From the NCBI GenBank assembly GCA_036389795.1, contig DASVWD010000149.1, positions 1 through 40,765 of the forward strand: a DNA stretch of 40,765 bases, written 5' to 3'. Under the pieces are notes generated by a model that ran no database searches, had not been told where the DNA came from, and saw nothing but the letters and a program-made list of their open reading frames with translations. This document shows, in pieces, positions 19,545 through 21,694 of the stretch. The position numbers and the translations under genes were made by a program. How positions within the stretch are numbered: the first letter of the stretch is position 1; each line of letters begins with the position of its first letter. The stretch is from Longimicrobium sp. (GTDB lineage Bacteria > Gemmatimonadota > Gemmatimonadetes > Longimicrobiales > Longimicrobiaceae).

Positions 19545-20381
19545 TCAGCGGAGGTCGCCCATCGCGACGCCCTGCATGTCGGCGAAGGCCTGGTTCTCGC
19601 CGCCCATCGCCCAGCAGAAGGAGTAGCTGGCGGTGCCGCACCCGGAGTGGATCGACCACCCGGGCGAGAGCGCCACCTGCCCGTCGCGGACGACGAGGTG
19701 CCGCGTCTCGCCGGGCTCGCCCAGCAGGTGGACGACGACGGCGTCCTGGGGGACGGCGAAGTAGAGGTAGACCTCGGTGCGGCGCGCGTGGGTGTGCGCG
19801 GGCATGGTGTTCCACACGCTGCCCTCCATCAGCTCGGTGACGCCCATCACCAGCTGCGCGGTGCGCACTCCGTCGGGGTGGAAGTACTTGCGCAGGACGC
19901 GGCGGTTGGCCTGCGCGACCGAGCCCAGCTCCGTGGCCTGCGCGTCCGCGTGCGCCAGGTGCGTGGTGGGGTGCGACGCGTGCGCCGGGTAGCTCACCAG
20001 GTAGAAGCGCGCGGGGTCTGCCGCGTCGTCGCTCTCGAACGCGACCTCGCGGCTCCCGCGGCCGACGTACAGCCCGTCGCGCGTAGCCATCCCGTAGCGC
20101 TCGCCGTCGACGGTGACCGCGCCCGGGCCGCCGACGTTCAGCACCCCCAGCTCGCGGCGCTCGGTGAAGTAGTCCGCCGCCATGGCCTCGGGCGCGTCCA
20201 GGCGCAGCGGCCCGCCGGTGGGGACGGCGCCGCCCAGCACCACGCGGTCGAGGTCCACGAAGCGCAGCGTGATCCGCCCCGGCTGGAAGAGGCCTTCCAC
20301 CAGGAAGCGGTCGCGCAGCTCCGCGGTGTCCATGCGGCGCGCCGCGTCGGGCGAGGGGAGGTAGTGCATGCGGTCGGTCAT
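19545..20381 (-). CDS. kduI: 5-dehydro-4-deoxy-D-glucuronate isomerase (DKI isomerase)
   Basis: KduI converts 4-deoxy-L-threo-5-hexosulose uronate, the spontaneous product of unsaturated galacturonate, into 3-deoxy-D-glycero-2,5-hexodiulosonate in the cytoplasm. The 278-residue length equals that of the E. coli enzyme, and all four zinc ligands fall at the same numbers: H196, H198, E203 (in PAHTHARRTEVYLYF) and H245 (WSIHSG). It is a cupin. The product is the substrate of KduD, encoded on the same strand upstream at 20909-21694; the RiPP-like gene on the opposite strand separates the two, so kduI must have its own promoter, which I could not place with confidence in 20382-20460. DUF4861 follows 37 bp downstream. 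Confidence 0.96.
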   Translation of the reverse strand: MTDRMHYLPSPDAARRMDTAELRDRFLVEGLFQPGRITLRFVDLDRVVLGGAVPTGGPLRLDAPEAMAADYFTERRELGVLNVGGPGAVTVDGERYGMATRDGLYVGRGSREVAFESDDAADPARFYLVSYPAHASHPTTHLAHADAQATELGSVAQANRRVLRKYFHPDGVRTAQLVMGVTELMEGSVWNTMPAHTHARRTEVYLYFAVPQDAVVVHLLGEPGETRHLVVRDGQVALSPGWSIHSGCGTASYSFCWAMGGENQAFADMQGVAMGDLR

Positions 20382-20462: not shown

Positions 20463-20491
20463 TTGCGGGCGCCCATAACCAGACGTATTTT
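20463..20491 (+). promoter_or_regulatory. Promoter of the RiPP-like precursor gene
   Basis: -35 TTGCGG (20463-20468), 17-bp spacer, -10 TATTTT (20486-20491). The expected transcript starts near 20498, giving a leader of about 95 nt. Confidence 0.55.
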
Positions 20492-20591
20492 GAGAGAGTG
20501 GTCGCTCCGTCTTCCCCCGCGCGCCGGGTCGCCGGTGCTCTATCGGCGATTCCATCCGACGTGCAGAAACCCCGCTGAACCGGAGGCCAGC

Positions 20592-20819
20592 ATGAAGAAG
20601 CTCCAGCTGAACGTGGAGTCGCTTCGCGTCGAGTCGTTCGTGACGGACGCGACCACGGAGAGTCGCGGTACCGTGCATGCCCACTCGACCCACTCGAAGG
20701 ACAGCGCTTGCCAGACCTACGGGACCACGTGCTGGGCCGGCTGCGGTGGTATCAGCGGGAATGAGACCTGCCACAGCTGCAACTACGCGGTGTCGGAATG
20801 CATCGACTGCGAGATCTAG
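20592..20819 (+). CDS. Cysteine-rich RiPP precursor (pinensin/lanthipeptide-like)
   Basis: Predicted 75-residue precursor peptide. The leader MKKLQLNVESLRVESFVTDA has the L-x-V-E-S-F pattern I associate with pinensin-type lanthipeptide precursors, followed by a junction RGTVHAHS. The core holds seven cysteines (40, 47, 51, 60, 63, 70, 73) among many Ser/Thr, which could become lanthionine bridges after dehydration, or disulfides. CGGAGG lies 6 nt before ATG 20592, and a good promoter is present, so the gene looks expressed. No LanB, LanC, LanM, protease or transporter gene is in the window, so modification, if any, must be supplied from elsewhere. It lies between kduI and kduD on the opposite strand, with no terminator I can identify. 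The family assignment is from pattern only. Confidence 0.72.
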   Translation: MKKLQLNVESLRVESFVTDATTESRGTVHAHSTHSKDSACQTYGTTCWAGCGGISGNETCHSCNYAVSECIDCEI

Positions 20820-20908: not shown

Positions 20909-21694
20909 TCACCGCGCCATCCATCCCCCGTCCACCACCAGCACGTGGCCGTTGACGTAGTCGCTGGCGGGGGAGGCGAGGAAGACGACGGCTCCCGCCA
21001 GGTCCTCGGGCTCGCCCCAGCGCCCGGCGGGGATGCGCGCGGAGATCTCGCGCGAGCGCTCCGGGTCGTCGCGCAGCCGCTCCGTGTTGTCGGTGGCGAA
21101 GTAGCCGGGGGCGACGGCGTTCACCTGCACGCCGTGGCGCGCCCACTCGTTGGCCAGCGCCTTCGTCAGCCCGGCCACCGCGTGCTTGCTGGCCGTGTAC
21201 GCGGGCACCGTGATCCCGCCGCTGAAGGAGAGGAGCGAGGCCACGTTGACGATCTTCCCCGCCCCGCGCTCCACCATCTTCCGCCCCAGCCGCTGCGAGA
21301 GCACGAACACCGAGTCCAGGTTCGTGTGCATCACCACGTCCCAGTCACCCAGCGGGAACTCGGCGGCCGGGTGGCGGCGGATCGTCCCGGCGTTGTTCAC
21401 CAGCACGTCGATGCGACCGGCCAACGCTTCCGCCTCGTCGGCCATCGCCAGCACGGCCTCGCGGTCGGAGAGGTCGGCCTCCACCTGCCATGCCTGCCGC
21501 CCGGCCGCGCGCACGAGCGCCGCGGTCTCGTCCGTCCCCGCGCGCTGCGTGCTGGCGCAGACCACGTCGGTGCCGGCCTCGGCGAGCGCGCGGGCGATCG
21601 CCTGGCCCAGGCCACGGCTGGCGCCCGTCACCAGCGCGCGCCTGCCCTCCAGCGAAAAGAGGCGCGCGAGCCGCGGGGTGACGTCGGCTGTCAC
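20909..21694 (-). CDS. kduD: 2-dehydro-3-deoxy-D-gluconate 5-dehydrogenase
   Basis: KduD is a short-chain dehydrogenase that reduces 3-deoxy-D-glycero-2,5-hexodiulosonate to 2-keto-3-deoxygluconate with NAD(P)H. The 261-residue protein shows the Rossmann motif TGASRGLG near residue 24, NNAG near 101, the catalytic Ser in NVASLLSFSGG, and YTASK for the Tyr/Lys pair. It ends in the SDR motif DYVNGHVLVVDGGWMAR. The start GTG 21694 overlaps the stop of the GH105 gene by four bases (GTGA), a sign of translational coupling. It is the last gene of the rok-pel-GH28-GH105 operon. The assignment to KduD rather than another SDR rests on neighbourhood and on the LARLFSLEGRRALVTGASRG start typical of the family. 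Confidence 0.92.
   Translation of the reverse strand: MTADVTPRLARLFSLEGRRALVTGASRGLGQAIARALAEAGTDVVCASTQRAGTDETAALVRAAGRQAWQVEADLSDREAVLAMADEAEALAGRIDVLVNNAGTIRRHPAAEFPLGDWDVVMHTNLDSVFVLSQRLGRKMVERGAGKIVNVASLLSFSGGITVPAYTASKHAVAGLTKALANEWARHGVQVNAVAPGYFATDNTERLRDDPERSREISARIPAGRWGEPEDLAGAVVFLASPASDYVNGHVLVVDGGWMAR

Follow-up and report, generated by a model that had tools for sequence, protein, structure and literature searches.

The window analysed here is a 40,765-nucleotide contig of a Longimicrobium sp. genome in which kduI and kduD, two genes of a pectin locus encoded on the reverse strand, are separated by a small cysteine-rich open reading frame on the forward strand. The initial annotation had read this frame as an orphan RiPP precursor of pinensin-like type, and had proposed as alternatives that it is served in trans by enzymes encoded elsewhere or that it acts as an unmodified disulfide-rich peptide. 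The locus therefore raises the question of what the gene encodes, which enzymes, if any, would act on its product, and whether its place among pectin genes has a meaning.

The precursor gene and its setting

The frame between kduI and kduD is present as first described; it is open from 20463 to 20819, and 20463 is merely its first TTG. The coding sequence begins at ATG 20592 (Table 1), and the start first assigned was corrected while the frame itself was kept. The good ribosome-binding site noted earlier lies 5 bases before this ATG, and GGAG-type sites were found upstream of most paralogs in the same genome as well. The strong promoter proposed in the initial annotation was not recovered: a scan upstream of the precursor with a sigma-70 consensus, from which Gemmatimonadota promoters may differ, recognised none, and the best -35/-10 pair matched at 7/12 positions, which is mid-range for the upstream regions of paralogs and of ordinary genes in this genome. 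No convincing upstream motif common to the precursor and its paralogs was found. Words enriched upstream of these genes apparently came from the ends of adjacent coding sequences within the arrays, and because they were largely gone once the comparison was restricted to first genes and singletons, a common promoter or operator was rejected.

Table 1. Features of the precursor gene and its two neighbours in the window
Feature	Position	Strand	Basis
kduI, 5-dehydro-4-deoxy-D-glucuronate isomerase (neighbour, outside the system)	19545..20381	-	NF002091 (390 bits), PF04962
Ribosome-binding site GGAGG	20582..20586	+	Sequence; 5 bases 5' of ATG 20592
Precursor peptide CDS, 75 aa, ATG start, TAG stop	20592..20819	+	Sequence, ORF list, NF038180 match
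Leader MKKLQLNVESLRVESFVTDATTESRGTV, 28 aa (putative)	20592..20675	+	Alignment of 94 own-genome paralogs
Core HAHSTHSKDSACQTYGTTCWAGCGGISGNETCHSCNYAVSECIDCEI, 47 aa, 7 Cys and 11 Ser/Thr (putative)	20676..20816	+	Sequence; paralog core composition
kduD, 2-dehydro-3-deoxy-D-gluconate 5-dehydrogenase (neighbour, outside the system)	20909..21694	-	TIGR01832 (365.5 bits)

The leader and core were divided after the GTV motif on the basis of the paralog alignment, so that the boundary is a putative one and not a mapped cleavage site. Both the leader pattern LxVESF and the Cys/Ser/Thr-rich core that had been read from the sequence were seen, with all 7 Cys in the C-terminal part. Scored against NF038180, the curated model for pinensin leaders, the leader reaches 26.1 bits and so exceeds the cutoff of 24 (E 6e-6), as the pinensin-like assignment had predicted; this was the only model matched, a Pfam search of the precursor returning nothing. 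Given this E-value and that of the best own-genome paralog (1.4e-8), the leader match is not due to chance. A leader model built from the own-genome paralogs gave E 4.7e-15 at this place, the leader being close to the family consensus; in 32 leaders chosen for carrying the GTV motif, positions M1, K3, L6, L11, F16, G26, T27 and V28 were invariant. Inspection by eye revealed no evident secretion-type signal sequence. Judged by its sequence, the peptide is a further, previously undescribed member of the known pinensin family.

The gap between kduI and kduD measures 527 bp in the window, with the precursor inside it. In three relatives kduD and kduI are adjacent, only 99 to 211 bp apart, and the precursor is missing between them; in an alignment of these gaps most of the additional sequence of the window had no counterpart. 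Insertion in the lineage of the window would be a simpler account of these three comparisons than repeated loss. The 5' and 3' flanks of the precursor, compared with other precursor regions as possible mobile-element flanks, had no notable similarity to those examined. The exact peptide had no ortholog at E<=1e-9 in 20 genomes of the family, which leaves no basis for showing selection on its core, and a search of plasmids and viral contigs for it found none. Paralogs of the precursor lie beside many unrelated genes, which gives no support to a connection with pectin use, and its position between kduI and kduD is probably a chance insertion site.

Paralogs and modification enzymes in the genome

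The genome (G000; 7.5 Mb, 285 contigs, 98% complete, 3.75% contamination) contains 122 places matching the precursor peptide at E<=10, nearly all of them from residue 1-4 on, and 99 places matching NF038180 at E<=1. By reading the DNA around most of the matching places and applying the own-paralog leader model, 140 distinct intact coding sequences with the leader and at least three Cys were counted, 136 of them at E<1e-6; these E-values are partly circular, since the model was trained on 94 of the counted genes. The common leader motif and the gene anatomy are visible in the paralog alignment itself, and the proposed search for paralogs sharing the leader thus yielded about 140 intact precursors. 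Spread over about 60 contigs with housekeeping genes around them, they stand alone or in tandem arrays, one of which, on contig C206, comprises 13 precursors. Across the 94 aligned paralogs, Cys makes up 0.5% of leaders and 16% of cores, the latter also containing 13.5% Thr and 6% Ser. Mean identity is 54% for leaders and 30% for cores, compared with 25% for shuffled cores. Read from these alignments, a conserved leader joined to a variable, Cys-rich core is the anatomy of a RiPP precursor family. Closely related leaders of the genome have a mean dN of 0.20 and a mean dS of 0.38, a difference that points to constraint on leaders as a group, not on the precursor at 20592-20819 in particular. 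Two precursor loci of the same genome have other features: an array on contig C31 (L079:6000-8350) is without the GTV motif and its members have a common CCTGCxSGCGI core, contrary to the hypervariable pattern, and on contig C14 (L178:679-966) the core of a precursor consists of near-identical copies of VSGGGATQCGGVQTCGGGCQ.

No LanB, LanC or other lanthipeptide enzyme gene is present in the window. The genome search proposed for such enzymes located a single LanB gene, in a split LanB and LanC cassette on contig C225, where a 1077-aa glutamylation subunit (PF04738), a 350-aa elimination subunit (PF14028) and a 681-aa LanC (PF05147) follow one another downstream of parA/parB-like genes; no precursor was found on this contig. 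The description of the precursor as an orphan accordingly holds locally and fails for the genome, which has both enzymes and some 140 paralogs. The enzymes and the precursor are on separate contigs of a metagenome-assembled genome, which give no distance between them. Among PDB entries the LanB matches 6ec7 best, which is registered as a lantibiotic dehydratase domain protein and which we take to be the thiomuracin enzyme TbtB, and the small, elimination-type subunit is matched by TIGR03891 (thiopep_ocin). The LanC retains the WCHGAPG and LCHG motifs when aligned with LicM2 and LANCL1. On C206, the array of 13 precursors adjoins an ABC transporter, an HlyD-type adaptor and an S8 subtilase. A further locus, on contig C28 (L069:2577-16270), encodes two LanM-size proteins with LanC domains and many small ORFs with leaders ending in LESVAGG or LEQVAGG, and is probably a separate class II system; its LanM-type enzymes were rejected as candidates for the precursor because, judged by eye, they have small ORFs of their own close by, with leaders that end in the LESVAGG manner.

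A pinensin-type leader match, a core rich in Cys and Ser/Thr, and a split LanB and LanC in the genome were all found for this gene; the usual, though not strictly required, placement of LanB/LanC beside the precursor was not found on the 40.8-kb contig. It is quite likely, on this sequence evidence, that the gene encodes a class I lanthipeptide precursor of the pinensin family, belongs to a set of about 140 and is served in trans. The conserved leader would be recognised by the single split LanB of C225, which would glutamylate core Ser/Thr and then eliminate to give dehydrated residues; the adjacent LanC would close thioether rings onto core Cys, and an ABC transporter/HlyD/subtilase set such as that of C206 may export and trim the peptide. 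We infer modification, ring pattern, export, cleavage site and activity, the chemical steps by analogy with what is known of the family.

Leader and enzyme in relatives, and other readings of the gene

Of 21 genomes of the family, 10 have the LanB and the same 10 have the leader, the remaining 11 having neither (Fisher 2.8e-6, which overstates independence because the genomes are related), and both presence and absence occur within one genus. The own-genome leader model gave 143 matches in G000, at least 150 in each of G011 and G012, and 78, 70, 48, 18, 11, 5 and 1 in the other seven LanB genomes, with no matches in the 11 family genomes without LanB. Among 119 genomes of the class, LanB was found in two and the leader in the same two (0/117 otherwise). 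In G007, parA/parB-like genes, LanB, LanB-C, LanC, two precursors, ABC, HlyD and S8 genes lie in a row; precursors adjoin LanB-LanC in a similar way in G017, G001 and G012, exporter genes lying alongside in G007 and G017 (gene names in relatives were assigned by size and sequence start, with the Pfam check made on the G000 homologs). Loci of Thermoanaerobaculia, Acidobacteriota and Ignavibacteriales likewise contain MKKLKLxLDDLKVESF...GTV precursors beside the same type of LanB, and CGST repeats occur in the Acidobacteria-type precursors of L141 and L143. On the strength of this co-occurrence and linkage, the roughly 140 same-leader genes probably all feed one enzyme set encoded elsewhere in the genome, and the earlier suggestion of service in trans is well supported by the shared leader, the single split LanB/LanC cassette and the exact co-occurrence.

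Other gene types were observed in these relatives. In G011 (L131:8090-11831) and G017 (L133:5989-9496), precursors with EVQSF-type leaders lie beside a protein of about 590 aa, which in G011 has a weak PqqD-like match, and a protein with a nucleotidyltransferase domain; the two are possibly an extra tailoring pair. A second LanB, with a strong match to the whole Lant_dehydr_N model, is present besides the split LanB at L087 (G017, contig C9) and L088 (G009, contig C322), and a protein with a C39 peptidase domain (L127) lies beside one of these.

The gene between kduI and kduD could instead be a silent or decaying copy that was duplicated into the gap, its frame kept while it is either not expressed or not modified. 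That no sigma-70-like promoter was recognised and no ortholog was found in the 20 family genomes is consistent with such a copy, as are the relatives' gaps without a precursor, from which it may be recent; against it are the intact frame, the good ribosome-binding site and a leader near the family consensus, together with the general excess of dS over dN in own-genome leaders, which is not specific to this copy. We regard a silent copy as unlikely.

Modification by another enzyme set of the genome appears very improbable. On contig C285 (L068:8896-12594), an LxmK-like kinase (79 bits, below its cutoff of 315), a HopA1-domain protein (129 bits) and a separate LanC lie in a row as a class V-like set with LanC. 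No precursor adjoining this trio was recognised, with the same leader or otherwise, and in relatives the leader adjoins LanB instead. HopA1 is present in only 3 of the 21 family genomes, one of which is without the leader, and does not track it; class V membership of the precursor, with the trio as its enzyme, was rejected on this distribution. The proposal that the product is secreted on plant material as an unmodified peptide rich in disulfides and is tied to pectin use, to which the high Cys content and the location among pectin genes had pointed, has very little probability in view of the RiPP leader, the lack of an evident secretion signal, the paralogs beside unrelated housekeeping genes throughout the genome and the conservation of the pectin neighbours where the precursor is absent, which make the pectin setting look incidental.

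Comparison with known systems and significance

Taking the gene as a pinensin-family precursor served in trans, its nearest counterparts can be compared. Pinensins are class I products of Chitinophaga pinensis, described by Mohr and colleagues in 2015. The present system is like them in a leader that passes NF038180 (leader_pinensin) and in a split LanB plus LanC, an arrangement described for pinensin by Walker et al. 2020 (PMC7268733). It differs in having about 140 precursors, mostly unlinked to enzymes, with cores unrelated to each other, in a host from Gemmatimonadota as opposed to Bacteroidota, and the likeness rests on leader and enzymes, not on the core. In its organisation it resembles the prochlorosins, in which one synthetase is accompanied by many same-leader precursors with variable cores, many of them encoded far away (PMC7268733), and the SyncA peptides, with up to 79 precursors for SyncM (PMC12328550). 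The pattern of these marine cyanobacterial systems (ProcM, SyncM), one enzyme with many distant precursors of conserved leader and variable core, is found here in the 140 coding sequences, the one LanB and the greater identity of leaders than of cores. Those systems, however, use a class II LanM and Nif11-type leaders, whereas a class I split LanB/LanC, a pinensin-type leader and more precursors are found here; membership in the prochlorosin family proper was rejected, as the leader is not of Nif11 type and LanB, not LanM, tracks it. The split LanBs of thiopeptide type also have separate glutamylation and elimination-type subunits, in agreement with the 6ec7 and TIGR03891 matches; the C225 cassette, in contrast, includes a LanC cyclase, and no gene for a thiopeptide cyclodehydratase was seen in it.

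An antiSMASH survey of Longimicrobium terrae gives lanthipeptide clusters only (PMC7291104), and a literature search, covering few subscription papers, returned no description of such a system in Gemmatimonadota. With more than 140 candidate substrates for one LanB, the system seems to be an undescribed variant. We lean towards a broader reading in which, in several Gemmatimonadota species, one class I split LanB/LanC set modifies well over 100 scattered precursors per genome, as a class I counterpart of the prochlorosins with a repertoire larger than any in the literature searched and with copies landing at arbitrary intergenic sites such as that between kduI and kduD.

If one enzyme set serves all of these precursors, they would rank among the largest peptide libraries of this kind within one bacterium, and the handling of about 140 substrates by one LanB/LanC set would make it easy to test how much variation in the core leader-guided class I enzymes can accept. 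The question would then be which selective pressure favours such a diversity of peptides within a single cell. Because most precursors do not lie beside the enzymes, cluster-based genome mining misses them, and these bacteria would, if this reading is true, hold a large untapped library of lanthipeptides.
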